Of a DNA stretch of 60,865 nucleotides, positions 6,961 to 27,454 are shown in pieces (the stretch's first letter is position 1; each line of letters starts with the position of its first letter). Origin of the DNA: Leeuwenhoekiella nanhaiensis. GTDB lineage: Bacteria; Bacteroidota; Bacteroidia; Flavobacteriales; Flavobacteriaceae. The notes below the pieces were generated by a model. That model was given only the letters and a program-made list of their open reading frames with translations. It was not told the origin of the DNA and searched no databases. The stretch covers positions 1 to 60,865 of the forward strand of contig NZ_KZ319300.1 of assembly GCF_002744755.1 (NCBI RefSeq). Direction: 5' to 3'. The position numbers were made by a program, and so were the translations under genes.

Positions 6961-8163
6961 TCAGGCAGCCATAAGCAATTCTTCGGCCGTTTCACCATCA
7001 ATATTTTTAAAAGCTTCCAGATAGCGTTGTGCAATCACAGACATCGGCAGGGCATTGGCCGCTTCAAAATTGGCCTTCGCCAGCTCGGTACGATAGGCAG
7101 AATCTACCACCAGTTTAGCAATTGCCTGGGCAAGACTTGTAGCATTTTCGGGTTCAAAAAACTCCCCGCGATAGCCTTCTTCTTTCACCAAAAGGGCAAG
7201 ATCCCCCAGGTCTGGCATCACAACCGCTTTACCGTAACTACCGGCCTGATGCAGAACACCGCTGCTTCCGGTTGTTGAAGTGTAGGGGAAAACCACCATC
7301 GCGCTTTCGGTAAAAATGCGGGGTACATCTTCTTCAGCTACATAACCGGTGAAATGCACATTAGGTAAGTGCGCATACTTAGCCTGAACACCTGCCAGAT
7401 AACCAATGGTATTCGGGTTATCGGTCCCGGCGATGACCACTTCCAGTTCTTTACCGGTAACCTGACGGGCGCGCTCTACGGCTTCAATAAGGACTTCTAC
7501 TTTTTTATAGGTACCAAATTTTCCAAAAGTCATAATCTTCAGCGGACCTTCAGCGAGCTCAAAGCTCGGCTCTTTGGCCAGTTCAAAGGTACCGTGCGGA
7601 ATGAGCATACAGTTTTTGGCCTGGTATTTTTCTTCTAACAGATTCACGTAATTGCCAATGGTAAGGGCTACTTTATCGGCCTTTAAAACCACGCGGGTAA
7701 GCAACGAACCGATGAAATTAAATACTTTAATTTTCAGTTTATTGGAGGTGAATCCGGCCTGATTGAGATCTACCGCTTCCATAATGTTATGCAGCAACAC
7801 GATGGTTTTCATTCCCATCAGTTTGGTAAAAAAAGGAGTAAACAAGCCTAATGCAGCCGGAATCTTTTGGTCCCCAAACTTCATAAACTGAAGATTGTAG
7901 AGCACCGCATCGGGTTTTACGGCTTTAAGAGTTTTAGTAATAGACCACACATTGCGATAGCTGTTAAACTTCCAGCAGTTGATGACTTTTACCGTGCAGC
8001 CTTCCTCTTCAAAACGGATGTCAGCCTGAGCAGGTTCCACATCGGTTAACAGAACGATTTCAGTAACTTCTTCAAGCTGGCGAAAATGCTTCACCAAATG
8101 ATATGCATATTCGTTAAGGGTTACTTTACTGGGAGGATACGCGGTTACGATAGCTAATTTCAT
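6961..8163 (-). CDS. GT4-family GT-B glycosyltransferase
   Basis: 400 residues from the ATG at 8163 (MKLAIVTAYPPSK), the natural first strand of a GT-B fold. The longer frame to 8232 adds a non-homologous leader. The C-terminal half carries the GT4 donor-site signature: KIMTFGKFGTYKKVEVLIEA, VVIAGTDNP, VHFTGYVAEEDVPRIF, then FPYTSTTGSSGVLHQAGSYGKAVVMPD. The enzyme is cytoplasmic, probably membrane-associated through the hydrophobic patch near residues 105-125. It lies next to a flippase, the same pairing as PelF and PelG in the Pel system, although it is shorter than PelF. Its upstream region (8210-8280) carries a LytTR-like half-site and a CAnnTTTG element. Confidence 0.85.
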   Translation of the reverse strand: MKLAIVTAYPPSKVTLNEYAYHLVKHFRQLEEVTEIVLLTDVEPAQADIRFEEEGCTVKVINCWKFNSYRNVWSITKTLKAVKPDAVLYNLQFMKFGDQKIPAALGLFTPFFTKLMGMKTIVLLHNIMEAVDLNQAGFTSNKLKIKVFNFIGSLLTRVVLKADKVALTIGNYVNLLEEKYQAKNCMLIPHGTFELAKEPSFELAEGPLKIMTFGKFGTYKKVEVLIEAVERARQVTGKELEVVIAGTDNPNTIGYLAGVQAKYAHLPNVHFTGYVAEEDVPRIFTESAMVVFPYTSTTGSSGVLHQAGSYGKAVVMPDLGDLALLVKEEGYRGEFFEPENATSLAQAIAKLVVDSAYRTELAKANFEAANALPMSVIAQRYLEAFKNIDGETAEELLMAA

Positions 8164-8209
8164 AATCAAGGTTTTTAAGATTTGGAGTACTTGAGGTTTA
8201 AATTCAGAA

Positions 8210-8280
8210 CAAAAATGGGTTAGAAATACCAAAGCTTTTGTCGAAACACGTTCGTTTGAAGTTTGGTATCGACGAATGGT
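8210..8280 (-). promoter_or_regulatory. Putative LytTR-controlled promoter of the GT4 gene
   Basis: On the minus strand ACCATTCGT (8280 to 8272) is followed 62.5 bases later, centre to centre, by CATTTTTG (8217 to 8210), one base off TAnnTTTG and 47 bases before the ATG. A weaker half-site, AACGAACGT, lies at 8256-8248. The half-site to -7 distance is identical to those at 9712-9782 and 18617-18687. Confidence 0.45.
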
Positions 8281-8287
8281 AGTTATC

Positions 8288-9544
8288 CTACGACGAGGCT
8301 TTTTTCAGCTTTAGGCTGTGCAGCACAAAATAAGAGACCTGGGCACACAGCAAGAGCCCCATTGCAATCACCTGAGCGATGACCACTTCGAGTAAACTGG
8401 CGTGGAAAAATACGATAAGCAGCACCTGCACCACCCCAAAAATACCGGCCAGGGCTACGGGTTTATATTCATCAAGGGATAAAAAGTAATAGGCAAACAC
8501 ATTAGACAGGGCAAACAGCGAGGTAGCCAGCGCATACCAGCCGAGCAAAGGCGCGACAGACAGGTAAGCTTCCCCAAAGAGCAGTTGTACCGAAAACGCG
8601 GGGAACAAAAAGGTAAAGGCGGTGATGGAAAGCGACAGCAAACCAATATAGCCCAAATACTTCTTAAGAACGGGTAACGGATTCTTCCCTTCTTTACGCA
8701 GCAAAACCACCTTGGGCAATAGGATCATCACAAACATCCAGGTCACAAAATACACTACCCGGCCTATCAGCGCCAGCGAGGCGTACAAACCCGCATCGTA
8801 GGCTTCAAAATAATGCTTCACCAGCAGGATATCGCTGTTGTTACACATGATTTGGGTGAGTTCGTAAGCGGCAGTAAGTACAAAAAACTGCAGGATCTGT
8901 TTATACTGCTCGGGTGCCAGTACCGGCTTACTGCCCCGGGTAGGATTGTTCTTTTGAAAGGGAAACATTCCGGCGACAAACGAGACCGCGATGGCGATTG
9001 AAACGGCGTAGGCCGCCTCGACTTGAAAAAGTAACAACAGGCTAAAAGTCAGCACCAGGCGCACCAGCATTTCCAGTTGATAGGTGACCGAAAGCTGCAC
9101 GAAAAGCTGATTGCCCTGCAGATTGCCACGGTTGACGCTCATCGCGAAATATAGGGGTATGGCAAGGCCAAAAATCACAAATAGCGTTGCCGAAGCCGTA
9201 TGGAACAGTTCCTGCAAAAACGGAGCGCTCAGCACACACAAAATGCCAAAGCCAATCCCCACGCCGGTCGCATAACGCAAAGCTTTAGCGATTAAGGCTT
9301 CCCGCGCTTCGGGGTCAAAACCGGCGGTAAATTTAGCCACCGCAAGCTGAAAGGTCATCGCCACAAATGACAGGACTAAAAGCATCGTAATGAGTATGGC
9401 GGCATCAGCAAAGGCAGCCGGTCCCAGCACCCTACCCAGAATCAGGTTGTAGGCATAGTTACCTCCGTTTACCACAAAGGCACTGGCCATAAAGATTTGT
9501 TCGGGAGTGAGGAGTTTGGGAAGACGTTTGGTTACTACAAGCAT
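8288..9544 (-). CDS. Wzx/PelG-like polysaccharide flippase
   Basis: 418 residues with about twelve membrane helices and the fold pattern of the MATE/MOP oligosaccharide exporter family. Helix 1 has FVVNGGNYAYNLILGRVLGPAAFADAAIL, a typical Wzx/MVF start; the charged linker FPFQKNNPTRGSKPVLAPEQYKQI splits the two halves; EAYDAGLYASLALIGRVVYFVTW is a classic Wzx signature. Such proteins move lipid-linked sugars, or in Pel the growing polymer, across the inner membrane. The gene follows the small frame at 9555-9689 by 10 bases and precedes the GT4 gene, so the three probably form a unit, with an extra promoter inside. No Wzy polymerase is visible nearby. Confidence 0.85.
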   Translation of the reverse strand: MLVVTKRLPKLLTPEQIFMASAFVVNGGNYAYNLILGRVLGPAAFADAAILITMLLVLSFVAMTFQLAVAKFTAGFDPEAREALIAKALRYATGVGIGFGILCVLSAPFLQELFHTASATLFVIFGLAIPLYFAMSVNRGNLQGNQLFVQLSVTYQLEMLVRLVLTFSLLLLFQVEAAYAVSIAIAVSFVAGMFPFQKNNPTRGSKPVLAPEQYKQILQFFVLTAAYELTQIMCNNSDILLVKHYFEAYDAGLYASLALIGRVVYFVTWMFVMILLPKVVLLRKEGKNPLPVLKKYLGYIGLLSLSITAFTFLFPAFSVQLLFGEAYLSVAPLLGWYALATSLFALSNVFAYYFLSLDEYKPVALAGIFGVVQVLLIVFFHASLLEVVIAQVIAMGLLLCAQVSYFVLHSLKLKKASS

Positions 9545-9711: not shown

Positions 9712-9804
9712 CAAAGATGTTGCGGGAATCACCAGGATTCGGTCAAATTTCGTTTAGCGGAAGTCTGCTGTAGACGAATGGTATTTAATCGGCTTTGAAA
9801 TGGA
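9712..9804 (-). promoter_or_regulatory. Putative LytTR-controlled promoter of the small ORF and flippase
   Basis: The minus strand carries TCCATTTCA (9804-9796), ACCATTCGT (9782-9774) and TCCGCTAAA (9761-9753), spaced 22 and 21 bases, the usual LytTR period. CATCTTTG (9719-9712) follows the central half-site by exactly 62.5 bases centre to centre. The flanking half-sites fit WMMGTTNRK at only six or seven of nine positions. Confidence 0.45.
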
Positions 9805-10285: not shown

Positions 10286-10380
10286 CCCCACCTCCAAATA
10301 CCAAAAAGTATCGACGAGTTGCAAATAACTACAGATTGAATCTGTACGAACTGCTTCTAACTTGCATCAGTAAAATAACG

Positions 10381-12405
10381 ATGATGAAAAAACTAATTCT
10401 CGCTTTAAGTATGTGTTTCGCCAATTGGGCTTTTGCTCAGGAAATGACTACCGGATTTAACTTACTGGAAAACGGTAAGTATACTCAGGCAAAATTGTTT
10501 TTTAAAGAGATCCTTGAAGACTATCCTACCAATAAAACGGCCCAGCTGTGTTACGGCAGGGCTCTGGGTTTGAGTGGTGAGACCGCGAAAGCGACAGCTC
10601 TTTTCACCCAAATGCAAAACGAATATCCGGGGGATTATGAGATTGCCTTAAACTATGCCGAATCGCTTTTATGGGCCGAAAACTTCAACGAAGCCCAAAC
10701 GGTGTATGAAGACCTGGTTAAAACAGACAGTACGAGCTTTTCGGCGGTATTGGGTTATGCCAATACCCTGTCTAACCTGAAAGAATACAACAAAGCTCTG
10801 GAGCGCGTCAATCAGGCATTGAGCCTGCAACCGGGAAATGCAAACGCGCTGGTTTCGCGTAAATACATACGTCTGGGCAGAGCCAATCAATTGAGCAGTG
10901 ATGGAGATTATCGTACGGCTTTGGCTTTGCTTGATGAAAACCTTAAGGATTTTGAAGGCGATAACCTTAGCCTACAGGTTAAAGCCAATGTGCAAATCGC
11001 ACAGAAAGATTATGATTCGGCTTTTACGACTTATGGCCGTTTGGCAGATTCGGTTGCAGTTTTGACCGGGCAGGCTTTGGTGGCCCATCTCGACGGTGCC
11101 GATCAAAAGGCTTTAGCCCTTTCGCGCAAAGCAAAAAATTTCAGCCCGAAAGATTCGCTGCAAAGCATACAGGCCAGCGAGCGTTATGTACAGGCCCTCA
11201 TCTGGAACCAAAAATTTAAAACCGCGCGCCACGCTTTAGACAGTTTAGATCAGATCTATGGAAATGCTCCGCGTATTTTGGCCTTAAAAGCCAGTCTGGG
11301 TATGTACACCGGCACCTTTAAAACCAGTATCGCGCACTATCAGTCTATTTTAGAACAGGACTCCACCTCCTTTGACGGAAATCTGGGTATTGCCAATGCC
11401 TACCGCGCACAGGGTAACCTGGATCAGGCTTATGCTTTTGCCCAAAAAACCACGGAATACTACGCAGGTCAAAAAGACGCTTTAGGACTGATGCAAACCC
11501 TTTCGGGCAGTCTTGCTCCACAGGTTATGCCACGTGCCGCCTATACCCGTGATAACGGAGGCAACCGGGCCTATGCCGCCGGTTTGAGCGTGCTGTTCCC
11601 GGTGTCCTATCGCTTTCGTACCCAAATCAATTACGACTACCGTAAAACTTCCAATGAAGATGTAGATGCGCAGGCCTCGAACAGCAGCTTTAATTTTGGA
11701 GTTCAGTACCGCATCCACAACAACACCTGGATTGAAGCCAACCTGGGAGTCCTTAATGCCGAAGCCGATGTCAACAGCTATACAGATGTCAACGGCTCGG
11801 TGCTGTTAAAAGCCCGCCCGCTTCCCTTACAATACCTTGAACTGGGCTACAGCCGCGAGTTACAAAACTTTAATGCTACGCTGATCGACCAAAAAATCTT
11901 TATGAATAACTACAAGCTCAATTACAATATGGGCACAAACGTAAACCTGGGCTGGTACACGAGCCTTATTTTCACGCCACAAACCGATGGCAACCAGCGC
12001 AAGTTGTTGTTTACCTCGCTGTATTACAACTTTACCAAAGCTCCCGCACTTAAAGGCGGAATCAACTACCAGTACCTCAGCTTTAAAGATCAGGTACCTG
12101 CGTTGTATTTCAGTCCGTCAAGCTATCAGGCGGTGGAGTTGTTTGCAGATTTAAACGGAAGCATCAAAAACTGGCAGTATACGGCCAATGCTGCCGGGGG
12201 TTATCAGTTTGTAGAAAAAGACAAGGCTACGACCCTTTTCAGGATTGAAGCAGGCATCATCCATACGCTATCAGATCGTCTGGATGCGGGTTTTTATGCC
12301 AAATACAGCAACGTGGCTTCGGCTACTGCTGCCGGTTTTGAGTTCACCGAGGTAGGCCTAAAAATGAGATGGCAGTTTTTAGCAAAACCGGTGTTTAAAC
12401 TCTAG
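10381..12405 (+). CDS. TPR-repeat outer-membrane beta-barrel protein (PelB/BcsC/PgaA-like)
   Basis: 674 residues from the ATG at 10381 (ATGATGAAA; 10384 is equally possible). A signal peptide (MMKKLILALSMCFANWAFAQ) is followed by about ten TPR units (residues 23-390, for example TAQLCYGRALGLSGETAKATALF and ALVLGYANTL-type repeats). The last ~270 residues are alternating aromatic and polar beta-strands (FRTQINYDYRKTS, WIEANLGVLNAEADVN, LLFTSLYYNFTKAP) ending in an outer-membrane barrel. A periplasmic TPR superhelix joined to an export barrel is the architecture of BcsC, PgaA and PelB, the secretion ports of synthase-dependent exopolysaccharides. It is transcribed separately from its neighbours. 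Specificity is unknown. Confidence 0.8.
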   Translation: MMKKLILALSMCFANWAFAQEMTTGFNLLENGKYTQAKLFFKEILEDYPTNKTAQLCYGRALGLSGETAKATALFTQMQNEYPGDYEIALNYAESLLWAENFNEAQTVYEDLVKTDSTSFSAVLGYANTLSNLKEYNKALERVNQALSLQPGNANALVSRKYIRLGRANQLSSDGDYRTALALLDENLKDFEGDNLSLQVKANVQIAQKDYDSAFTTYGRLADSVAVLTGQALVAHLDGADQKALALSRKAKNFSPKDSLQSIQASERYVQALIWNQKFKTARHALDSLDQIYGNAPRILALKASLGMYTGTFKTSIAHYQSILEQDSTSFDGNLGIANAYRAQGNLDQAYAFAQKTTEYYAGQKDALGLMQTLSGSLAPQVMPRAAYTRDNGGNRAYAAGLSVLFPVSYRFRTQINYDYRKTSNEDVDAQASNSSFNFGVQYRIHNNTWIEANLGVLNAEADVNSYTDVNGSVLLKARPLPLQYLELGYSRELQNFNATLIDQKIFMNNYKLNYNMGTNVNLGWYTSLIFTPQTDGNQRKLLFTSLYYNFTKAPALKGGINYQYLSFKDQVPALYFSPSSYQAVELFADLNGSIKNWQYTANAAGGYQFVEKDKATTLFRIEAGIIHTLSDRLDAGFYAKYSNVASATAAGFEFTEVGLKMRWQFLAKPVFKL

Positions 12406-12412
12406 TTCGGTT

Positions 12413-13141
12413 TTAAAGCAGATTGAGCCGCTTCATCAGTTCGGGGCGGTTAGAACGGCTGATGGGAATCACATCCCGCGCAATAAGCACACTGTTGTCT
12501 TCAATATCAATAATCTTCTTGATGTTGATGATAAACGAACGGTGCACCTTCACAAACAAATGATCGGGTAATTTCTCTTCTATTTTTTTGAGGGTAGAAT
12601 GAACGGTGTAGTTCTTCTGTTCGGTCTTGATGAGGATGTAATCGCCTTTGGCCTCGATCAAAAAGATTTTATCAAATTCTATTTTAATCAGACGCCGGTC
12701 TATGTTGACGTACATTTCCTTTTCAGTAGAAGCCTCGGGATTTGCAGAGGTTTCTTTGCTTACTGCCGGTGCTGCGGCGGGAGCCGCCGGCGGGGCATTT
12801 TCGAGCCTTTGTAAGGCTTTGATAAACCGCGGCAGGGTAATGGGTTTTACCAGATAATCTACAATGCAATCGTATTCAAAGGCTTCAATGGCAAAATTGC
12901 GGTCTGAAGTGGTGAGTATGACTTTTGGCGGACTTGCCAGCGTATCTAAAAAATCAAATCCCGTAAAATCGGGCATGTGAATGTCGAGAAAGACAAAATC
13001 AACTTCATTCTTGTTTAAAAACTTGATCGCCTGAAGGGCATTTGGAAATTCATCAATTACCGTAACATCTTCCACCTGACTGCACAGGTGTGATACGATC
13101 ATTCGTGAAGCGGCTTCATCATCTACAATAATACAATTCAC
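12413..13141 (-). CDS. LytTR-family response regulator
   Basis: 242 residues from a GTG at 13141; no in-frame ATG lies near. Residues 1-115 form a receiver domain with the acidic pair D7-D8, phospho-acceptor D53 in FVFLDIHMPD, T/S in VILTTSDRN and K in YLVKPIT. An alanine/proline-rich linker (about 116-137) leads to a LytTR DNA-binding domain (140-242: MYVNIDRRLIKIEFDKIFLIEAKGDY, FVKVHRSFIINIKKI). This is the only DNA-binding output in the signalling operon and its last gene. LytTR proteins bind 9-base direct repeats about 21 bases apart; such repeats occur upstream of this operon and of exopolysaccharide genes in the window. It ends 7 bases from the convergent TPR gene. Confidence 0.93.
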   Translation of the reverse strand: MNCIIVDDEAASRMIVSHLCSQVEDVTVIDEFPNALQAIKFLNKNEVDFVFLDIHMPDFTGFDFLDTLASPPKVILTTSDRNFAIEAFEYDCIVDYLVKPITLPRFIKALQRLENAPPAAPAAAPAVSKETSANPEASTEKEMYVNIDRRLIKIEFDKIFLIEAKGDYILIKTEQKNYTVHSTLKKIEEKLPDHLFVKVHRSFIINIKKIIDIEDNSVLIARDVIPISRSNRPELMKRLNLL

Positions 13142-13177
13142 AATTTGAGGCTTTTGGGTACTACAGCAAATTACAAA

Positions 13178-13495
13178 TTATAAGTCATTTACAAAATCAG
13201 AAAGTCGGTTTAGCTCCCGTTCAAAGGCGATTTGTGAGGTTTTAGCGCCGGTTTTCAATTCTTCCTCATAAAGAATGGCGATTTCGTATGCTTCATCCAT
13301 ACCGGCTATCCCCAGTTTGTGCTTCATTTTATGCACACTTTCGGCTGCAGATTTCCAATGCTCCTGCTCCATATAGCGGCGGTAGAGCTCTATTTCCAGA
13401 GGCAGCTCCTTTTTAAGAATGGCAATAAACTGGCTGCGGAACTTTTCATCGTCTCCGGCTAAATCATCAACGTAATTAAGGTTAGGGCTATTCAT
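13178..13495 (-). CDS. HPt phosphotransfer protein
   Basis: 105 residues from the ATG at 13495, which overlaps the end of the upstream kinase gene by 8 bases; the longer frame to 13576 is only kinase sequence read in another frame. The four-helix HPt signature is present, with the probable phospho-acceptor H55 in SVHKMKHKLGIAGM. HPt proteins carry phosphate from a receiver domain to a second receiver. Neither kinase in the operon contains a receiver, but the single-domain regulator at 18178 does, so a relay kinase, 18178 receiver, this HPt, LytTR regulator is plausible. In Pseudomonas the NosP-linked kinase NahK also works through an HPt protein. Confidence 0.85.
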   Translation of the reverse strand: MNSPNLNYVDDLAGDDEKFRSQFIAILKKELPLEIELYRRYMEQEHWKSAAESVHKMKHKLGIAGMDEAYEIAILYEEELKTGAKTSQIAFERELNRLSDFVNDL

Positions 13496-14531
13496 AGTGA
13501 TTTTCGGTTTGTGGGAGGGTGAAATAAAACGTGGTGCCTTTGCCCGGTTCGCTGTCCAGCCAAATGCTTCCACCATAGGAGTTTACAATCTTCTTGACAA
13601 TGGAAAGTCCGATCCCGGTAGAATTGGAATCGTGCTCCAGTTTTTGAAAGACTTTAAATATTTTATCGAAATAATTGGGATCAATACCTTTTCCGGTATC
13701 GGTCACTTCAAACTGATAGCCGCTATCCAGTTCGCGGCCCACGATTTTGATGCTGCCGGAAGGTTTTTCGATGCTTTTAACCGCGTTACAAATAAGGTTT
13801 TGAAACAACTGGTGAATCTTAAACCGGTCTGCTGTGATCACCGGCAAACGGTGTACCTGCACGTCAATATCTTTAGGAATGTGAATACCGGAAAGCGTTT
13901 CCTGCAGCAGCAGATTGAGATCAATCCGACTTTCGGTACCGCTTTCTCTATCTATTGTGGAATAATGTAGAATTCCGCCAATGAGGGCGTCCATCTTTTC
14001 GAGATGGGTTTTGATCAGATCCATTTGCTGCAGTCCGTTCTCGTCAAGTTTATCACCATAGTCTTCCCGAAGCCAGGAAACCAAAGCATCAATGTTTCTT
14101 AAAGGCGACTTGAGGTCATGAGATACAATATGCGCGTAATCGCTCAACTCCTGATTTTGCTGTTCCAGTTCCTGCAGGAGACGTTCCTGCTTTTTAGTAA
14201 CGGCAATTAGCTCTTCGGCCTGTGTGCTGATGTAATCGGAAAGATTTTCGCCTTCCAGGAGCGGTGCGCCACTTGCCGGTGCCACCCGGTTGATGACTTC
14301 TTCAAACCGACTTAAGAGTGCGCGCTGCTTTTCGGTCTCCTGACGCAAAGAAACATTGGCCTGATAGAGTTCGTCTGAACTGAGCTTCATCGCCCGCTGC
14401 GTTATATTGAACTGGTCTTCGAGGTTGTCATACGAGTTGCTTACGGCCTGCAAAAAAGCTTGCAGATCCTCCCGTTCCCGAAGTTCTTCGGGGAGGTATT
14501 TGCGCATTTGGCGGAAAAGCAGCTCGTTCAT
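13488..14531 (-). CDS. Sensor histidine kinase with coiled-coil N terminus, no membrane segment
   Basis: 347 residues from the ATG at 14531; a GTG at 14540 would add three residues and overlap the FIST stop. The first ~130 residues are helical and coiled-coil, with no PAS domain and no membrane helix, so the kinase is cytoplasmic and probably takes its signal from a partner. HisKA has the phospho-acceptor H138 in YAHIVSHDLKSPLR; HATPase_c has FQNLICNAVKS, VTDTGKGIDP and STGIGLSIVKKIV. The gene follows the FIST gene by one base, the same pairing as NosP-NahK operons. It lacks a receiver, so phosphate must leave through a separate receiver protein. Confidence 0.9.
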   Translation of the reverse strand: MNELLFRQMRKYLPEELREREDLQAFLQAVSNSYDNLEDQFNITQRAMKLSSDELYQANVSLRQETEKQRALLSRFEEVINRVAPASGAPLLEGENLSDYISTQAEELIAVTKKQERLLQELEQQNQELSDYAHIVSHDLKSPLRNIDALVSWLREDYGDKLDENGLQQMDLIKTHLEKMDALIGGILHYSTIDRESGTESRIDLNLLLQETLSGIHIPKDIDVQVHRLPVITADRFKIHQLFQNLICNAVKSIEKPSGSIKIVGRELDSGYQFEVTDTGKGIDPNYFDKIFKVFQKLEHDSNSTGIGLSIVKKIVNSYGGSIWLDSEPGKGTTFYFTLPQTENHYE

Positions 14532-14532
14532 A

Positions 14533-15663
14533 TCATTCACTTATTAACGTTATGGTCATGGTTTGGTTGTGCAGTTTACAGCTGCGTTCGCCGTAAAAGG
14601 GAGCGATCTCCCCGTACGAATACATGCCGCTGATGATCACGTCTTCGCCCAGCACTTCCCGCACTTCTTCAACCTCTTCTTCCACCCGTTGACTCAATAC
14701 CAGTTTACGACCTATACAGCTGATGAGCAGGGCAAGCTGCGGTGGTACCGTGCGGCCTTCAAGCGCCCGTAAGGCGGCAGTTTCGGAAGCCATGGCCAGG
14801 CTATCTGTATTGGTCATCATCAGTTGTACCAAAGCCTGCTCAGGCACGTCACCGGCCAGGATCATCGCGTTTTGTGCCTCATCAATCTGAAGAATGGTAC
14901 GTACAAAAGCCTGATTGTTTTCGGTACTGGTAACATTAAGCGGATAAATCAGCGCAGATCCCCGAAGTTCTTTAGCCTTTTCGCCCAAATACATACGATA
15001 CAAATCAAGGGCCGGTTTACCGTCTATTTCGTACAGGACATTGCCTTCAGAGCGGGTTACCACACGCTGCGGCCCAAAGGGAATCCAGCCGCCGTACAGC
15101 GAGAAACTGGCTTCAAAGCTTTCGCCATAAAACCCGATTACCACGATTTCCCCGTCATCAGGCGGTTTATTATACCCGGCGAGGGTACGTTCAAAACGGG
15201 CATCATCCCCACACAAACCACCAGTAATCAACACCTTGGGAGCCGCGGCCTGCATACCTTTGGTGAGTGCTGAGCCGTTTACCGAGCTGCCTTCCGAAAC
15301 CACAAAAATGTGTTTAAGTCCTTCGGGATTCAATTTACTAACCACCTCACGCCCGGCCCGTTCGCTGTTGTACGCTACGCTTCTGACGTTTATGGTTTGC
15401 ACTTCAAAATGCGCTCGCTCCAATTCGATAGCCGTGACGCTGAGATGTTCATCGTTCACCGAATCGGCAATCAAATCACCGCTAGACGAACCAAAAACCA
15501 GATGCCCATCGGGGAAAAGTTTGCGCAATTCATCAAAAGTAACCGCCTCTTCCAGCAGAAATCGGTTACCGAATATCAGAACAAGAGGATTCTTCAAATC
15601 CTGCTTTGGCCCTATATACTGCCAGGCTGTATCGCGTTTCCGCTGAAGTTGTACCGTTTTCAT
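14533..15663 (-). CDS. FIST-domain sensor protein (NosP-type candidate)
   Basis: 376 residues. The FIST N domain spans about residues 28-220 (LVLIFGNRFLLEE, HLVFGSSSGDLIAD, HIFVVSEGSSVNGSALTKG, VLITGGLCGDDARF). FIST C covers about 220-365 (ALDLYRMYLG, LIYPLNV, GDVPEQALVQLMM, ALLISCIGRKLVLSQR, GMYSYGEIAPF). FIST proteins are soluble ligand sensors. A subset, NosP, binds haem and nitric oxide and is encoded next to a histidine kinase that it inhibits. This gene lies between two kinases, 3 bases from the upstream one and 1 base from the downstream one, in an operon that also has H-NOX. That context supports a NosP role, but I cannot confirm haem ligands by eye. Confidence 0.85.
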   Translation of the reverse strand: MKTVQLQRKRDTAWQYIGPKQDLKNPLVLIFGNRFLLEEAVTFDELRKLFPDGHLVFGSSSGDLIADSVNDEHLSVTAIELERAHFEVQTINVRSVAYNSERAGREVVSKLNPEGLKHIFVVSEGSSVNGSALTKGMQAAAPKVLITGGLCGDDARFERTLAGYNKPPDDGEIVVIGFYGESFEASFSLYGGWIPFGPQRVVTRSEGNVLYEIDGKPALDLYRMYLGEKAKELRGSALIYPLNVTSTENNQAFVRTILQIDEAQNAMILAGDVPEQALVQLMMTNTDSLAMASETAALRALEGRTVPPQLALLISCIGRKLVLSQRVEEEVEEVREVLGEDVIISGMYSYGEIAPFYGERSCKLHNQTMTITLISE

Positions 15664-15666
15664 AAG

Positions 15667-17643
15667 CTATTTGGCTAAGGTGAAATAAAAGGTGGTTCCT
15701 TCGCCGGGGGTGCTTTCCAGCCAAATCTTACCGTTGTACAACTCCACAATTTTTTTGACAATAGAAAGTCCCACACCGGTGGAATCTTTTCGTTTTTGCA
15801 AAGACTGAAAAATCTTAAACACCTTCTCGTGATACTCGGGCGCGATCCCTACCCCATTATCACTCACTTTAAAAAGCCAGTTGCTTTGCTGCTCTTCACA
15901 TTCAATACGTACCCAACCCGGATTTTTATCGCAGTAGGCAATGGCGTTGCCTATGAGATTTTGAAAGAGTTGTTGCAGCTTCACCCGGTCTGCCATCAGC
16001 ACCGGAAGCTGATCAGGATAGCTAAATTCAATATGTTCGGGGATGTGTATCAGGGTTTTGATATCCTCAAGTACCTGCTTCACCGGCACCTCCTCGCGTT
16101 TGCTGCTTTCAATACCCATACTCGAATAATTAAGAACATCTGAAATAAGCTGCTCCATCTTTTCAAGGGTTTGATCTATAAGACCAAAATTAGTAAGGGT
16201 TTGCTCATCAAACTGCTCTTTATTGTCTTCTCTGATCCAGTCTACCAAGGCACTCAGACTGCGTAAAGGCGATTTCAAGTCGTGAGAAACCACGTGGGCG
16301 TACTCCTGCAATTCGTCATTACTCTTCTCTAGCTTACGAAGCAGATTTTCTTTTTGAAGCTCCAGGTTTTTGATGTCGGTAATATCGAGGTGAATACCAA
16401 TAGAACCTACCACCTTACCGTTTATGTTGTAATTAGGCGCCCCGCTGATTAGCCAGTGGCGTAACTCGCCGTTTTTTCTGCGGGCACGAATCTCGTACGA
16501 ATTGGAAGTCCCATGCTGGCGGCTTTCATTCTCTGCGGTGAGTTTATCGCGGTCCCCGGGATAGAGCAAAACGTCCATTCCCTTTTTCCCCAGAAGTTCT
16601 GCTTCGGTATAACCCGACATTTCTTCAAGACTTTGATTGACCATCAGGATCTCATCATCGTTGTTTACCTCGATCAGACCGAGGTTCATATTGGCGATAA
16701 TGTTGCTGTATTTTTGACGTTCGGCCTCAATACTCTCGCGGTATTTTCTGCGAAGGGTCACATCACGGTAGGTCCAGAGATGCCCCTTGTATTGCCCCTC
16801 TTCGTAGATGGGGATAAAATCGCGCTCCAGCACACGGCCGTCACGCATCGCAAGTTCATCTGCGAGCACCTGTTCTTTACTAACAAGCAGTTCGTTTATG
16901 CGGTTTACAAAACCATCCGGATCTTCAAACAGACCTTTACTTTGCTCTGCAGCCTGCTCACAGTTCTGACCCTGCAGCAGTTCGGGTGCGACGGGAATGC
17001 TGAAAAAATCGCAAAAGCGCTTGTTTGTAATTACTATATTTCGATTTTCATCTTCAAGCAACACACCGCTTTCCAGATTAAGAATAAGGGTAGAAAGCCG
17101 GTTTTGGGAATCTACCAGTTGCTGCTCGTTGCGCTTCTGGCTGGTAATATCACGAATAATACCCTGTGCTGCCAACGGCTTTTTATCGCGATCGTAAATT
17201 ACACTGGCATTTATTTGCACATAGCTCACTTCACCACAGGCACGGCGTATGTGAATTTCAAAATTGGTGAGGGAGCCTTTTTGCATCAGCTGCTCAAAAC
17301 CCTGAGGTACGAGAGGCCTATCTTCTTCGGTTACCAGTTTGTATAAGTGAATGTGATCTTTAAGCGTATACCCCAAAAGGCTTTCGGCAACCTTGTTCAT
17401 TTTAATGGGAACCCCTTCCAGATTCATCATCACATAGGCATCTGCAATATTGCCAAAAACACCCTGCAACTCAGAGTTTGCGGTATAGACCAGGCTTTCG
17501 AGTTTCTGATTGGTCTTTTTAAGCTCTTCAGACTTAAAATACAGCTCACGGGACTTTTCTTCAAGAATACGCTCTGCCTCTTTACGGGCAGCACGTTCCC
17601 GGGCCAGCGCCCTCTCATACAACTCGAGTTGCTTCTCACTCAT
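15667..17643 (-). CDS. Cytoplasmic multi-PAS sensor histidine kinase (H-NOX partner)
   Basis: 658 residues. It starts with a coiled coil (residues 4-52), then three PAS domains (about 58-168, 178-298 and 305-425; each ends in a PAC-like segment such as AQGIIRDITSQKR and SIGIHLDITDIK). HisKA follows with phospho-acceptor H454 in YAHVVSHDLKSPLR, then HATPase_c (LFQNLIGNAIAYC, VSDNGVGIAP, STGVGLSIVKKIV). There is no membrane helix and no receiver. The N-terminal coiled coil directly follows an overlapping H-NOX gene (8 bases shared). This is the usual H-NOX/kinase pairing, in which NO-bound H-NOX inhibits autophosphorylation. Its catalytic core closely resembles that of the kinase at 13488, suggesting duplication. 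Confidence 0.93.
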   Translation of the reverse strand: MSEKQLELYERALARERAARKEAERILEEKSRELYFKSEELKKTNQKLESLVYTANSELQGVFGNIADAYVMMNLEGVPIKMNKVAESLLGYTLKDHIHLYKLVTEEDRPLVPQGFEQLMQKGSLTNFEIHIRRACGEVSYVQINASVIYDRDKKPLAAQGIIRDITSQKRNEQQLVDSQNRLSTLILNLESGVLLEDENRNIVITNKRFCDFFSIPVAPELLQGQNCEQAAEQSKGLFEDPDGFVNRINELLVSKEQVLADELAMRDGRVLERDFIPIYEEGQYKGHLWTYRDVTLRRKYRESIEAERQKYSNIIANMNLGLIEVNNDDEILMVNQSLEEMSGYTEAELLGKKGMDVLLYPGDRDKLTAENESRQHGTSNSYEIRARRKNGELRHWLISGAPNYNINGKVVGSIGIHLDITDIKNLELQKENLLRKLEKSNDELQEYAHVVSHDLKSPLRSLSALVDWIREDNKEQFDEQTLTNFGLIDQTLEKMEQLISDVLNYSSMGIESSKREEVPVKQVLEDIKTLIHIPEHIEFSYPDQLPVLMADRVKLQQLFQNLIGNAIAYCDKNPGWVRIECEEQQSNWLFKVSDNGVGIAPEYHEKVFKIFQSLQKRKDSTGVGLSIVKKIVELYNGKIWLESTPGEGTTFYFTLAK

Positions 17644-18178
17644 AAACGCGGATACTAAATTTCACTTCGGTACCATCATCCTTGATCTTTTCGACCAGCA
17701 CTTCTGCCTGATGACCAAAATGGGTTAGCGTGCGCTGCATCAGTCCTTTACCAAAGGCATACATCGCGCGGCTGGAGCGGTATAACAAAATCAGCTTGTC
17801 GCTGTCTTTTTCAAGCACCCGAAAAACAGGCAGTTCGGCATCGGGATATATTTTACGCACCTCAACGTGGATGTGGCTTTCTATGGAAGCCAGTAAGTCT
17901 AAAGGATCGGTGTACTGGGTGATGAAACCCTGATAACTTCTTAATACGACCCCGAAGAAATGCTCACCATAAACTTCGAGCAAGGTGTCAATAGAAACTC
18001 CCGTTTGCTCACTGAGTTCAACCAGCAGGCTTAGCATTTCTGAAAATTGATAGGTGCCCACCGCGGTATAGACTCCGCCGGAAGGCAGATGCGCTTCGCT
18101 GATAAGATGGTCTACCATCTCAAGGCCATAGCGCTCTTCTACCAGCTCCAGAAATTCTGTAAAAACAATACCTTTCAT
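17636..18178 (-). CDS. hnoX: H-NOX haem nitric oxide/oxygen-binding sensor
   Basis: 180 residues, the typical length of a stand-alone H-NOX domain. The haem-coordinating YxSxR motif is intact as Y133-R134-S135-S136-R137 in LLYRSSRAMYAFGKGL. The probable proximal ligand is H104 in HVEVRKIYPDAELPVF, matching the family's H..V...YP.a.lP block. The start overlaps the stop of the response-regulator gene (TAATG) and the end overlaps the PAS kinase start by 8 bases, so production is tightly coupled. Facultative anaerobes and aerobes use such H-NOX proteins as picomolar NO sensors that control kinases. No distal tyrosine for O2 binding can be assigned with confidence, which favours NO over O2. Confidence 0.92.
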   Translation of the reverse strand: MKGIVFTEFLELVEERYGLEMVDHLISEAHLPSGGVYTAVGTYQFSEMLSLLVELSEQTGVSIDTLLEVYGEHFFGVVLRSYQGFITQYTDPLDLLASIESHIHVEVRKIYPDAELPVFRVLEKDSDKLILLYRSSRAMYAFGKGLMQRTLTHFGHQAEVLVEKIKDDGTEVKFSIRVYE

Positions 18179-18579
18179 TAAGAATCTATAAGTTCGTTAA
18201 TACTCCAGTAGTCTAAAGCGATTTTAATTTTATTGACGTAGTCGTCGTATTTCAGAGGCTTTATCAGGTAACCTGCAACGCCTATTTTATAACATTCCAG
18301 CATATCTTTCCGATTTGCTGAAGTAGTCAAAATCACGGTAGGCAAAAACCGCAGACGGTCGTCAGCCTTGAGTATTTTCAGGAAATCAATCCCGTTGATT
18401 TTAGGCATATTGAGATCCAGAAAAACAACATCGGGCAAACTCCCTCCGGCTTGCAGCAGGTTAAGTGCCTCTTCGCCGTCACGGGCTTTAATCAACTGAT
18501 GTTCGACGCCCAGTTTGCTGATAGCGCGTTCGAGTTTCATGACTTCTATAGCGTCATCTTCGATAAGTAAGATATTCAT
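18178..18579 (-). CDS. Single-domain CheY/Rcp1-like response regulator
   Basis: 133 residues from the ATG at 18579 (MNILLIEDDAIEVMKLERA); the longer frame to 18690 runs through the promoter. It is a bare receiver with D8-D9, phospho-acceptor D55 in VVFLDLNMPKINGIDF, the conserved T/S in VILTTSANR and K in YLIKPLKYDDY. There is no output domain. It is the first gene of the operon. Because neither kinase downstream has its own receiver while an HPt protein is present, it is the natural intermediate in the phosphorelay. The spacing upstream (18617-18708) contains the LytTR-like repeats, implying autoregulation of the operon. Confidence 0.92.
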   Translation of the reverse strand: MNILLIEDDAIEVMKLERAISKLGVEHQLIKARDGEEALNLLQAGGSLPDVVFLDLNMPKINGIDFLKILKADDRLRFLPTVILTTSANRKDMLECYKIGVAGYLIKPLKYDDYVNKIKIALDYWSINELIDS

Positions 18580-18616: not shown

Positions 18617-18708
18617 CAAAATTGCATCAGAAATCCTTTTGAAAAGTCAAAGCTAGATGAAGCCTGCCTAAAGTGTAGACGAGTGGTCATTAAGTGTAGA
18701 CGAGTGGT
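18617..18708 (-). promoter_or_regulatory. Promoter of the NO-sensing operon with a perfect LytTR-like direct repeat
   Basis: A 17-base perfect direct repeat (plus strand AAGTGTAGACGAGTGGT) lies at 18671-18687 and 18692-18708, period 21. Read on the minus strand each copy contains ACCACTCGT (seven of nine to WMMGTTNRK). CAATTTTG (18624-18617) lies 62.5 bases centre to centre from the nearer half-site, the same geometry as at 8210-8280 and 9712-9782. A perfect alternative -7 element, TAGCTTTG, lies at 18655-18648, which would place the half-sites near -40 and -61. Confidence 0.5.
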
Positions 18709-19105: not shown

Positions 19106-21832
19106 TTATCCTTTTATAAACCGAAGCGTACTGCTCTGCTCCCCGCTGGTAACACGAATCAAATATACCCCCGGAGTTAAGGACGAAACCGGGATGGCCC
19201 GGGTTTTCGAAACATCAAGCGGCCCCAGCACATTGCGCCCATTCAGATCGTAGATGATGGCTTTCGATGCATTTGCCTCATTAAGCTGCAACTGAAGCAC
19301 ATCGGTAGCGGGATTGGGATAGATTTTAAAAGAGTCTGCAGCATTAACAGGTGTGACACTCAGCTGATCGAAACGTACCGGCAGACTCGCAAGCGTATAA
19401 CCGGCAGATGCCGAAAGATAGGCCGTAAACGGATCTACTGTTTGCGGAGTTCCGCTCTCGACCCGTTTAAAGACCGGGTCTTCATTCTCAACAGTAAGGA
19501 TATAAGCACCTGCTGTGGCCTGAGTTTTAATATAAACTGCATTCAGGTTATTTGTGGTATTGGCTTTTGGAGTACTTACTGAGCCACTGCCCGTAAAGCT
19601 AAAGCTACCTGTTCCTAAAACCAGCACCGGGGTATTGGCCGGGATAACGTCACCGGTTATAAGCTTGCACGCAATTTCATCAGTTCCGGGTTCTATCGTA
19701 TAGCAATCTGCACCTTCGGGAATAGCAGCTTCAAAAGGTAAAATAAGCAGTTCGTAACCGCTAAAATCACGGGTATAGCTGGCTTGTGTAGCCGTAAAGC
19801 TTTCGGGCACCTGAAAGTTTCCGTTGCCTTCCAGTTTCAGTTGCGAAGCCTGAGTGCCGCTAATTACATTAGGTTGATCTAATCCACTGCCAGTTGCGGT
19901 GTAAAACAGGAGATTGGGATTCGCCGCCTGTGATTTCCAGTCGGTAGTTTCGGGGATGGCCGTGGTTTGGGTAAAATCGATCCCGGTATAATCAGGATTG
20001 GAAAGCGCTTCGAGGAAATCGCTGTCTTCCTTACTGTAAACCCCTTCAAAAGCATAGGCTTTTTCATTCCCCAGTAAAAAATAAACCGCTCCAAAATCAA
20101 TAGTCAGCACCGAACTGTAATTGGTATTGCTTATTCCTAAAATGCCCGTGATTCCATCGGTGAGCACCGCGCGTGAAAGATCAAGCTCAAATTGAAAATT
20201 ACCGGTTGCAGGCATTTCAATACGCCCGTAGTTGTGCGAACTCAAAGCTCCCGCAGCGTTAACGTAGTGCAGGGTGGTGTTGTCTGAATTGTATTGATTG
20301 GCAGAGACTACATTTTCTACCTGAAAAACAAGTTTGGTATAACGGTCATCAAGCGCCAGATAGCCATTAGTAAGTGCGGTGTTTGAGCTGATCAGACGGT
20401 TGTTCACGCTAAAGGTTATTTGGCGGTTACTCAGCTGATAACCGGTACCAAAGGTCGCCTGCGTGGGATTCTGACTTTCGATAGGGTTGTAATACACAGG
20501 GCTTCCGGTCATTTGCGACTCGGGACGCTCGCTGCTTTTTTCAAAGACAAAAGTGGTAAAACTACTGGGCGCAATTGTGAGTTGTGGGCGAAAACGTTCT
20601 GAAGCATAGGTAACTTCAGTAGTGGTCATACTTTCAGTGGTTGTGGTGACCACCCGGGTACCGCTTTGGGTATAAAACGGAAGGTCTGCCGTAAGATTAT
20701 AGGTATTGGCCGAAGCATTGATAAGATGCAGCGTCAGGGTGTTTCCATCCTCAGAAATATAAGCCGAACCTTCAAGCTGCCCGCTGTCATCAAGCCAGGT
20801 TGCGGCAATACGCTTTTTACCGGTGGTGTATTTCGCAAAATGCGACAGAATATATCCCCGTTTGGTAATCACGCCTTCCTGGGTACCGCGTTCGCCATCA
20901 CCCATCATCCCGTAATAGCGCTTGGAGGCATAATGCACCCAGGCACTTACGTTTGACAGCATAGCCGTATTGATGCTTCGGGCAAAATCAAAGGCATCCT
21001 GCTGCCAGTTATAATCGCGCGGAGCCTGACTGCCTGCGTTCCAGTTGATCAAAAACTCGGTCATCCATGCCTCTTTACCCTGACTGCGCTGCAAGGTAAT
21101 CCCTTCGGTCTCCACAGCGCCATACTGATGTCCGGCAAAAATGTCGAATTGTTGTTTAACCCCATCTGCTGCCAGTGCCTGCGCATAGCGCGTGGAAATC
21201 CCCACCGTCTCCGGGGCGATGATTTTACAGTCGATACGACTGCCGTAATCCCGTATAAAGTTGGCCATTTGCTGCGGCGTCCAGGAGCAACCCGCGTAAG
21301 TGACCTTATAATCGGGTTCGTTTTGCAGAGAAATCCCGTCAAGTTCTACCCCGTTATCGCGCAAATACAGCACGTAATCATTCAGATAGTCTGCATAATC
21401 CCCGTAGTGTTCCTCTTTCAGAAAACCTTCAATCTCATTGCCATTTGAATCAATTACGATACCGGCTATGTTGTTGTTGGTTTTCCACTCGGCCGGCATA
21501 GACCAGGGGCTTGCAAAAATGATAAGTCCCAGCGACTGCGCGAGCTGAGCCGTAGCCAGCGACTGCGACCAGTTGTCACGACCTATGGGAATATAGAGGC
21601 GCATAATGTTATAACCCAGTTCGCTGTCCGCACCCCAAAGCTGGCGTATTTGGGCAGGGGTCATATGGTTGTAGGCAAATTGCGGACTGCACACAAAACC
21701 GCCATAGCCGGTAACAGTCTGAAAGTTCGCACTGGCATCAAGTTGTACCGTAGCAGGGAGTTTCTGCGCGCTAAGATTAGACAGGCTTAAGGAAAAAAGC
21801 AGACTTAAAAAATAGGTGTAGAGTTTTTTCAC
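19106..21832 (-). CDS. Secreted GH30-family glycoside hydrolase with type IX sorting domain
   Basis: 908 residues from a GTG at 21832 with a signal peptide ending SNLSAQ. The GH30 catalytic barrel covers about residues 25-330, with TGYGGFVCSPQF at the start. The probable acid/base is E172 in ISLQNEPDY and the nucleophile E259 in EAWMTEFLINW; ASPWSMPAEWK and FAGHQYGAVE are typical GH30_8-like blocks. The side beta-domain follows (about 330-435). Residues 440-830 hold further beta-rich modules, possibly carbohydrate-binding. The last ~75 residues (FKIYPNPATD, IIYDLNGR, LTPGVYLIRV) are a T9SS type A sorting signal, so the enzyme is secreted or cell-surface. Likely substrates are glucuronoxylan or a related polymer; this cannot be resolved by eye. 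Confidence 0.88.
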   Translation of the reverse strand: MKKLYTYFLSLLFSLSLSNLSAQKLPATVQLDASANFQTVTGYGGFVCSPQFAYNHMTPAQIRQLWGADSELGYNIMRLYIPIGRDNWSQSLATAQLAQSLGLIIFASPWSMPAEWKTNNNIAGIVIDSNGNEIEGFLKEEHYGDYADYLNDYVLYLRDNGVELDGISLQNEPDYKVTYAGCSWTPQQMANFIRDYGSRIDCKIIAPETVGISTRYAQALAADGVKQQFDIFAGHQYGAVETEGITLQRSQGKEAWMTEFLINWNAGSQAPRDYNWQQDAFDFARSINTAMLSNVSAWVHYASKRYYGMMGDGERGTQEGVITKRGYILSHFAKYTTGKKRIAATWLDDSGQLEGSAYISEDGNTLTLHLINASANTYNLTADLPFYTQSGTRVVTTTTESMTTTEVTYASERFRPQLTIAPSSFTTFVFEKSSERPESQMTGSPVYYNPIESQNPTQATFGTGYQLSNRQITFSVNNRLISSNTALTNGYLALDDRYTKLVFQVENVVSANQYNSDNTTLHYVNAAGALSSHNYGRIEMPATGNFQFELDLSRAVLTDGITGILGISNTNYSSVLTIDFGAVYFLLGNEKAYAFEGVYSKEDSDFLEALSNPDYTGIDFTQTTAIPETTDWKSQAANPNLLFYTATGSGLDQPNVISGTQASQLKLEGNGNFQVPESFTATQASYTRDFSGYELLILPFEAAIPEGADCYTIEPGTDEIACKLITGDVIPANTPVLVLGTGSFSFTGSGSVSTPKANTTNNLNAVYIKTQATAGAYILTVENEDPVFKRVESGTPQTVDPFTAYLSASAGYTLASLPVRFDQLSVTPVNAADSFKIYPNPATDVLQLQLNEANASKAIIYDLNGRNVLGPLDVSKTRAIPVSSLTPGVYLIRVTSGEQSSTLRFIKG

Positions 21833-27155: not shown

Positions 27156-27454
27156 CTATTAACAATATAAACGAATGTATTGCGATTTCCCAATTCACAC
27201 TTTATTAGCACAGTTTTAGCCTATTATTAAGCCTTCGGGCTATCAAAGCATGGTAAAATCCTGGATTCTTTCAATTCTAAAAACAAGAAAATTAATTATT
27301 TAGAATAATGAATTTTAATAATACATCCTAATTCGAGAAGATTCAACATTACTTCATTTCTTAACACTTCTTTAAAGCTGTGTTATATGAGGGTTAAAGT
27401 GTGGGGCTGCTCCGTGATTTTAACATATTTTCAGCCTTTGTAAGCAAAATCTAT

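Follow-up and report, generated by a model that had tools for sequence, protein, structure and literature searches.

The locus considered here raises the question of how two sensor-kinase pairs encoded in a single operon could act on one output. It lies in a 60,865-nucleotide stretch of the genome of Leeuwenhoekiella nanhaiensis (contig NZ_KZ319300.1), called here the window, and consists of a minus-strand operon, 12413-18579, of seven tightly packed genes, ordered in the list of open reading frames as receiver, H-NOX, PAS kinase, FIST, kinase 2, HPt, and LytTR. Neighbouring genes overlap by 1-8 bases or are separated by gaps of 1-3 bases, the sole larger spacing being the 36 bases between HPt and LytTR. 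An earlier note, made from the sequence alone, had described seven overlapping or abutting genes, and all seven reading frames were confirmed in their place and strand; its reading of one operon with two sensor/kinase pairs, a separate receiver, an HPt protein, and a LytTR regulator is borne out by Pfam searches and by the conserved gene order. All parts of a multi-step phosphorelay, i.e., kinase, receiver, HPt, and a second receiver with an output domain, are present. We regard as fairly likely a modular multi-step phosphorelay in which two sensor-kinase inputs would converge on one receiver-HPt-LytTR relay, with LytTR acting on its own operon and on surface or exopolysaccharide genes.

H-NOX protein and kinase 1

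The second gene (17636-18178, minus strand) codes for a predicted H-NOX haem sensor, whose HNOB domain scores 130.1 bits against a curated Pfam cut-off of 25.5. The Y-x-S-x-R haem contacts together with a proximal histidine are the hallmark of H-NOX proteins. The earlier note had found YxSxR intact at 133-137 and a probable proximal H104, and H104, Y133, S135, and R137 are shared by 99/99 sequences (the window and the 98/110 relatives scoring at least 150 with the family model). The protein has the Gly71 hinge and not a single cysteine; it therefore has no zinc-redox site, and zinc-redox sensing was ruled out. Its closest solved structure is 6bde (E 6.8e-71); the nearest solved H-NOX, 6BDD/6BDE of Kordia algicida, shares H104 and YxSxR with it in the alignment, and the assignment of 6BDD to that species is taken from the available text of its source (PMC7356049). 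By family and by analogy with these solved relatives, the protein likely binds haem and NO.

The gene of its presumptive partner, kinase 1 (15667-17643, minus strand), shares 8 bases with the H-NOX gene. Its product comprises three PAS stretches by Pfam, as the description of a three-PAS kinase had it, with HisKA and HATPase_c. A receiver domain was found by Pfam search in neither kinase 1 nor kinase 2, in agreement with the earlier claim. Within the genome, the core of each kinase has the other as its closest match by a wide margin (234 bits in either direction, the next match scoring 117 bits with kinase 1 and 109 with kinase 2), which is consistent with a shared receiver. Across species the cores form two families, and on a quick tree the kinase 1 label needs 2 changes.

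Receiver, HPt, and LytTR regulator

The first gene (18178-18579, minus strand) codes for a single-domain, CheY-like receiver (Response_reg, 74.3 bits on the longer reading frame). Its catalytic residues are intact: in the window and its relatives, 20/119 of the latter being left out by the alignment score limit, which excluded 12/110 for H-NOX, D8 is present in 100/100 sequences and D9 in 97/100. The last gene (12413-13141, minus strand) codes for a LytTR-type response regulator (Response_reg 63.8 bits, LytTR 71.9 bits), in which D7, D8, and the receiver Asp53 are each kept in 101/101 sequences (window and relatives, 5/105 left out).

The product of the sixth gene (13178-13495, minus strand) scores 21.2 bits with Pfam Hpt, below the cut-off of 24.6, and this match was rejected as proof of an HPt protein. 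Its AlphaFold model is a confident helical bundle (pLDDT 93.4), the four best solved-structure matches of which are all HPt domains (TM 0.64-0.75, at Foldseek E values of only 0.02-0.05), and the phospho-acceptor His55 is kept in 97/99 aligned sequences (0/98 relatives left out). The HPt fold is thus backed by the predicted structure and the conserved His55 despite the weak Pfam score.

The output of the operon is probably transcriptional, because the 99.91% complete genome gives 0 matches to GGDEF and 0 to EAL; the controls of these searches matched in 8 and 6 of 14 genomes, respectively. With 0 matches in the genome, NO signalling coupled to c-di-GMP through GGDEF/EAL proteins was set aside. 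Production of NO by a copper nitrite reductase is likewise not supported, as the genome gave only two matches for this enzyme, both below the cut-off.

The FIST protein and kinase 2

The putative second sensor (14533-15663, minus strand) comprises FIST N and FIST C domains (Pfam FIST 138.2 bits, FIST_C 114.6 bits). It had been introduced as a FIST/NosP sensor; the FIST part of that name stands, while the NosP label was rejected, the protein scoring 52.9 bits with the NCBIfam equivalog NF041558 against a cut-off of 450. A plasmid-encoded NosP (L129), used as a positive control, scores 461.6 bits. Its presumptive partner, kinase 2 (13488-14531, minus strand), has an N-terminus of about 130 residues with no known domain, followed by HisKA and HATPase_c.

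Conservation of the operon

A search for the same gene order in other Bacteroidota, proposed as a check in the earlier note, found all seven genes separate and complete in 42/79 distinct relatives retrieved by H-NOX. These come from the 80 loci with the closest H-NOX matches, all of one phylum and most from Flavobacteriaceae, of which L040, identical to L037, was excluded from the counts; the window itself appears as L001, L105, and L106. H-NOX identity falls to 61% across the 80 loci. In L082-L085 the same order accompanies a very different H-NOX, and in L112 H-NOX is missing while the other operon genes and the upstream repeat are kept. Among 296 Bacteroidota genomes drawn evenly across the phylum, 8 have H-NOX and FIST at the same locus; 13/23 other H-NOX loci from the even draw lie in other contexts. 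The gene order is not due to chance, since it recurs in 42/79 relatives and the two sensor genes share a locus in 8/296 genomes.

The usual core comprises receiver, H-NOX, kinase 1, HPt, and LytTR, and occurs without FIST and kinase 2 in 17/79 loci. FIST is present in 54/79 (L052, which like L069 and L071 is cut by a contig end, was counted from a partial match; in L077 FIST lies outside the operon block). Receiver, HPt, and LytTR are kept together in 72/79 loci, the remainder being contig-end fragments, L010, in which an Hpt-like domain, also below the cut-off, is fused to kinase 2, and L028, with no HPt detected. FIST and kinase 2 together form a cassette that is optional and exchangeable. 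Its FIST protein is of two types, FIST-a and FIST-b, and the cassette appears and disappears at a single, constant position in the operon. Its state differs between the sister loci L003/L041, L212/L213, and L019/L033, and a quick tree with long-branch warnings gives at least 22 changes of state in total; strongly supported branches alone force 12 changes for FIST-a, 10 for no cassette, and 6 for FIST-b. The optional nature of the cassette was absent from the earlier reading.

Predicted LytTR sites and target genes

A twin direct repeat is situated before the receiver gene at 18668-18708 (minus strand), with exact 17-mers at 18671-18687 and 18692-18708 and a period of 21. Each of the 90 distinct regions preceding the receiver gene contains a direct repeat with a 21-bp period, with scores above those of shuffled sequences; in 88/90 it lies 85-145 bases before the predicted start, as counted from a start codon chosen by script (in the window GTG 18594, not ATG 18579). 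The sequences scored are also those from which the motif model was made; in leave-one-out runs the minimum score is 12.5 and 89/90 best places are unchanged. The published layout of LytTR sites, according to the available text of its source, has repeats of 9-11 nt with spacers of 11-13 nt (PMC4847170). Because the 21-bp period fits this layout, the repeat at 18668-18708 is read as a predicted LytTR site, through which the operon is probably autoregulated. The conserved LytTR-type site and its likely targets were missing from the earlier reading.

Two weaker predicted sites, each with one good and one poor half, lie on the minus strand beyond the operon. The one at 9742-9782 (score 15.8) is situated between the gene of a flippase-like membrane protein (8288-9544, minus strand), a predicted target named by reading its sequence and with no Pfam or NCBIfam match at the limits used, and a divergent gene of a TPR protein (10336-12405, plus strand). 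Sites precede the flippase homologues in 4/5 genus relatives that have one in the stretch examined. The TPR gene, whose 5' end faces the 9742 site, is convergent with the operon; its product is weakly like the BcsC/PgaA export porins, below cut-offs, and homologues adjoin the operon in 9 other loci. The site at 8261-8301 lies directly before another predicted target, a glycosyltransferase gene (6961-8232, minus strand), whose product scores 70.6 bits with Glyco_trans_1_4 and, in NCBIfam, matches EpsE best, at 44 bits and so well short of the cut-off of 400. The score of this site, 12.5, barely exceeds the maximum of 10.6 in the reversed sequence of the same genome, and the position is matched in L216 (21.7; one genome with L002, so not independent of it) and L212 (9.5).

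Surface-protein genes in the relatives have a site upstream in 39/52 cases; 8 of the 13/52 with no site above 10 score above 5. No site scoring above 5 was found outside the window in the 1,791,135 bases scanned of the 4.37 Mb genome. Around the operons of the relatives, 46 sites fall within 300 bp after lytTR (29 kb in all) and 1 inside the operons (464 kb). The 468 kb upstream contain 22 and the 189 kb lying further downstream 31, which shows that the sites extend beyond a single target. A control with neighbouring genes gave 27/256 windows above 10; it is not clean, since some of its windows cover the site of the operon itself and genes that are likely targets.

Proposed mechanism and its alternatives

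In the proposed relay, H-NOX, as the NO sensor, would control kinase 1, and the FIST protein kinase 2. By analogy with most of the studied H-NOX/kinase pairs, NO would lower kinase 1 activity. Both kinases would phosphorylate the single free receiver, from which the phosphate would pass to HPt and further to LytTR. LytTR would bind the 21-bp-period twin repeats and switch on, rather than repress, its own operon and the nearby surface or exopolysaccharide genes, with the FIST-kinase 2 cassette as an optional input to a core that stays the same.

One alternative, with slightly less than an even chance and compatible with the relay, concerns the second input: the FIST protein may sense a ligand other than NO, so that the operon would compare NO with another signal. 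This agrees with its low NosP score, and with the best fold matches, which are human FBXO22 and cyclic amide hydrolases, no haem protein appearing by title among the best 50 of 692. FIST is also common in Bacteroidota without H-NOX (70 vs 22 of 296 genomes in the even draw). In the alignment, from which proteins shorter than 300 residues (3/84) were omitted, the C-terminal H365 of FIST-a is kept in 60/60 sequences and C316 in 96/96, and both are shared with the NosP L129, which counts against a different ligand; in FIST-b, which occupies the same slot, the H365 position is Y/F in 10/10, which favours one. The organization of kinase 2, with no sensor domain before its core, also recalls NosK, the partner of NosP, as the available text describes it (PMC12570481).

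The remaining alternatives touch the relay and its site. Since neither kinase is a hybrid, a direct step from each of them to LytTR is chemically possible, leaving the free receiver and HPt as a side branch, either a separate output or a phosphate sink, a role that free receivers can play. We consider this unlikely, as it is opposed by the retention of receiver and HPt with LytTR in 72/79 loci and by the fusion of an Hpt-like domain to kinase 2 in L010. Less likely still is that the twin repeat serves another regulator and is merely positioned before the operon: LytTR regulators have no common site sequence, according to the available text of PMC4847170, but a 21-bp direct repeat in the LytTR layout precedes the receiver gene in all 90 regions, and the extra copies cluster directly after lytTR. 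That common descent alone accounts for the gene order, the genes having no function in common, is very improbable; the sampling of the closest H-NOX matches, mostly Flavobacteriaceae, favours it, against which stand the divergence of H-NOX, the order retained in L082-L085, and the exchange of the cassette at one fixed place.

Comparison with known systems

NosP of Shewanella oneidensis is reportedly able to act on the H-NOX network, as the title of Nisbett 2019 claims. Neither the relay nor the exchange of the cassette nor the site was found described in the open-licence literature, and a subscription paper could exist. The earlier note, in holding the combination not to be known as described, overstated its novelty, as FIST proteins near hnox had already been listed in 'group 1' of an H-NOX genome-neighbourhood network (PMC8738867); they are mentioned there briefly, and the available text makes no reference to a relay, HPt, LytTR, a cassette, or a binding site.

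As far as their sources are available, several systems resemble parts of this operon. In the HnoX-HnoK-HnoB system of S. oneidensis a stand-alone H-NOX likewise controls a kinase, but the output is a c-di-GMP phosphodiesterase (PMC8846402), in place of which there are here HPt and LytTR and no GGDEF/EAL matches. In Vibrio, H-NOX/HqsK and NosP/VpsS also act as NO sensors through kinases on an HPt protein, LuxU; those kinases are hybrid and the output is LuxO, whereas here the kinases are non-hybrid, the receiver is free, the output is LytTR, and both sensor types are encoded in one operon (PMC6769237, PMC11237717). The nosRPK genes of Burkholderia pseudomallei similarly place FIST next to a soluble kinase that lacks a sensor domain; they differ in being three genes without H-NOX, with a degenerate HD-GYP regulator and a reported haem binding and NO response (PMC12570481). 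YpdA/YpdB is alike in its LytTR receiver protein and two-repeat site, and unlike in its LytS-type kinase (PMC4847170).

H-NOX/NosP signalling in the literature, as far as available, mostly concerns c-di-GMP or quorum sensing in proteobacteria. To our knowledge, there is no HPt step in YpdA/YpdB. With the operon described here, marine Bacteroidota would gain a concrete route without GGDEF/EAL proteins, with a predicted DNA site and named predicted targets, and the natural variants, i.e., the core with or without the FIST cassette, sometimes in sister lineages, may serve to separate the contribution of each sensor. The seven-gene unit is common to many marine flavobacteria and likely places an NO sensor and a second, interchangeable sensor on one relay. 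More tentatively, and with somewhat less than even confidence, we propose a general scheme for bacteria without GGDEF/EAL c-di-GMP enzymes, in which a constant receiver-HPt-LytTR relay with exchangeable sensor-kinase inputs (H-NOX or not; FIST-a, FIST-b, or both) would join two chemically different signals in a single switch that controls the transcription of genes for surface polysaccharide or adhesin.

Genes and predicted proteins of the operon

The operon (12413..18579) consists of seven close-packed, real open reading frames on the minus strand, and its gene content agrees with that proposed in the earlier note: the receiver, H-NOX (HNOB), the three-PAS kinase 1, FIST (N and C domains), kinase 2, and the receiver-LytTR protein are matched by Pfam, and HPt is recognised by its fold. 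The HPt sequence match is weak (21.2 bits versus the Pfam cut-off of 24.6), but the fold argues strongly for this identity, the AlphaFold2 model (38 aligned sequences) having a pLDDT of 93.4 and its top four Foldseek matches among solved structures being HPt domains (TM 0.73-0.75 for the 3myf chains and 0.64 for 3iqt), albeit at weak E-values (0.02-0.05). In one related locus (L010:9857-11344) kinase 2 is followed within the same protein by an Hpt-like domain (22.6 bits, likewise below the Pfam cut-off), and a separate hpt gene was not detected there; the predicted fusion naturally connects the FIST kinase with the HPt step. The cores of kinase 1 and kinase 2 are mutual best matches in the genome at 234 bits and 50% identity, the runners-up scoring 117 and 109, and the next-closest relatives of the operon kinases (100-117 bits) are two adjoining kinases elsewhere in the genome (G000:C7:62452-65368).

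The YxSxR motif at 133-137 and the proximal histidine ascribed to H-NOX are both borne out, with H104, Y133, S135, and R137 invariant in 99 of 99 aligned proteins (12 of 110 relatives, under the score limit, are omitted). At the hinge (residue 71) the window protein has Gly, and 65 of the 99 have Ala. HPt His55 is retained in 97/99 sequences, receiver D8 in 100/100 (20 of 119 relatives omitted), and LytTR D7, D8, and D53 in 101/101 (5 of 105 omitted). The closest solved H-NOX entries are 6bde and 6bdd, both listed in the PDB under an aldolase molecule name; a modelling paper gives 6BDD as the Kordia algicida H-NOX (PMC7356049). In L082-L085, from one other Flavobacteriaceae genus, H-NOX is strongly divergent (47-50 bits with the family model; 174 bits with Pfam for L082), with the same gene order.

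The FIST protein had been proposed to be a NosP-type sensor. NCBIfam does not support this label: the protein scores 52.9 bits against a cut-off of 450, which a Variovorax plasmid FIST protein clears (461.6 bits). Among 96 aligned FIST proteins C316 is kept in all. H365 is kept in 60/60 proteins of type FIST-a from H-NOX loci, in 20/21 from the other FIST loci that were fetched, and in the Variovorax NosP, its position being occupied by Y or F in 10/10 proteins of type FIST-b. By fold, human FBXO22 and cyclic amide hydrolases match best among the 50 of 692 matches listed.

Conservation of gene order

The arrangement is real and conserved elsewhere in Bacteroidota. The loci compared were the best 80 of at least 542 confirmed H-NOX candidates from GTDB genomes, a biased sample since the closest matches were taken, and removal of one identical duplicate left 79. 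All seven genes occur as separate open reading frames in order in 42/79 loci; FIST-b replaces FIST-a in 6, both FIST-kinase 2 cassettes stand in series in 2, the core (receiver-H-NOX-kinase 1-HPt-LytTR) lacks a cassette in 17, and the remaining 12 are variants or contig-end fragments. In L027 (10931-13209) and L057 the serial cassettes lie in one operon, FIST-a then FIST-b. Two identical 14,531-base copies (L037 and L040) on one Tamlana nanhaiensis contig reflect a recent duplication or an assembly artefact. Within the genus H-NOX is found in 10/13 genomes, and the nine other loci fetched comprise eight complete ones and one without the cassette.

Of 296 Bacteroidota genomes drawn evenly across the phylum, 22 contain H-NOX, 70 FIST, and 14 both, with a common locus in 8. 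Ten of 23 other H-NOX loci from this draw combine receiver-H-NOX-kinase 1 with HPt and LytTR, seven of them with FIST; the other 13 show different contexts by the models used here.

The earlier note regarded the joint H-NOX and FIST operon as undescribed, which holds in part. FIST proteins near hnox are already reported for group 1 of a neighbourhood survey (PMC8738867), a group that may or may not include Bacteroidota, so the literature contains a hint of the arrangement in the form of a neighbourhood statistic. Of the papers that a full-text search found to mention H-NOX together with LytTR, one names LytTR for AgrA S-nitrosylation and the other in a general list.

Variation and probable exchange of the FIST-kinase 2 cassette

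A rapidly built tree of receiver, H-NOX, and LytTR sequences (90 rows), for which the software issued long-branch warnings, requires a minimum of 22 changes among the four cassette states. When only strongly supported branches are counted, the minimum is 12 changes for FIST-a, 10 for no cassette, and 6 for FIST-b. Sister pairs differing in cassette include L003 (FIST-a) and L041 (without), L212 and L213 (support 100 for each pair), and L019 (FIST-a) and L033 (FIST-b; support 99). The cores of the two kinases fall into separate families, with two changes required for the kinase 1 label, and the FIST-b partner kinases need four changes within the rest; it therefore seems that the FIST type was swapped while the kinase 2 core stayed. 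L112 keeps the receiver, kinase 1, FIST, kinase 2, HPt, and the twin LytTR site predicted upstream, with LytTR on the opposite strand, and no H-NOX match was found at this locus. These variants indicate that the core stays constant while its inputs can be exchanged, be it by transfer, loss, or recombination.

Upstream twin repeat and putative LytTR targets

Upstream of the receiver gene an exact 17-base repeat occurs twice at 21-bp spacing (18671-18687 and 18692-18708); with up to three mismatches two matches were found versus 0.08 expected, and 1 of 100 shuffles also gave two. The twin repeat (consensus WCCATTCGTCKACACTTA twice) is present in 90/90 distinct upstream regions, its lowest score, by the model built on these regions, being 16.0 when shuffled sequences reached at most 4.8, and lies at -85 to -145 of the script-chosen start codon in 88/90. 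The motif search gave 43.4 on the real set versus a mean of 9.8 (highest 10.4) for 20 shuffled sets. The layout agrees with the LytTR layout described in PMC4847170. As each complete operon encodes a LytTR protein, the simplest reading is a predicted site for the operon's own LytTR, i.e., autoregulation.

Across 84 loci further sites number 46 in the 29 kb within 300 bp after lytTR versus 1 in 464 kb inside operons; the upstream stretches (468 kb) hold 22 and those farther downstream (189 kb) hold 31. A large-protein family is encoded next door in 52 of 82 loci whose downstream gene was examined, and a site above 10 lies within 250 bp before its gene in 39/52. The three members scanned with Pfam carry DUF6923 and a T9SS sorting tail, so these large proteins are probably secreted or located at the cell surface.

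Next to the operon in the window lie genes for a TPR/BcsC-like protein, a flippase-like protein, and a glycosyltransferase, the latter two being preceded by sites of 15.8 and 12.5, respectively. The 1,791,135 bases of the genome scanned outside the window hold no site above 5 (highest 4.8), while the reversed sequence gave three (highest 10.6), which the 12.5 site clears only narrowly. A flippase homologue with a preceding site occurs in four (L212, L216, L217, L218; not L219) of the five genus relatives with such a homologue in the fetched stretch, L216 being from the same genome as L002 and not independent. From weak family matches we infer that the flippase-like and glycosyltransferase genes may serve exopolysaccharide production. 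A T9SS-tail protein (19106-21832) adjoins the operon, and a polysaccharide-degradation region with GH2, GH28, rhamnogalacturonan lyase, and GDSL esterases extends over 36930-60641. At the thresholds applied, the large open reading frames 1191-4229, 4226-5452, and 27401-31033 had no Pfam match.

Proposed signalling pathway

Profile searches found no GGDEF or EAL match in the genome (controls matched in 8/14 and 6/14 genomes, respectively); in Legionella, according to PMC11237717, c-di-GMP is the point at which the Hnox1 and NosP pathways meet. In the proposed mechanism NO on H-NOX would alter kinase 1 and a FIST ligand would alter kinase 2, both kinases would act through the free receiver and HPt on LytTR, and LytTR would activate its own operon and surface genes. 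NO lowers kinase activity in the H-NOX/kinase pairs studied, the Caulobacter H-NOX of PMC12329717 being reported as the exception. The sign of the NO effect can be guessed by analogy: if NO lowers kinase activity here too, LytTR activation would fall with NO.
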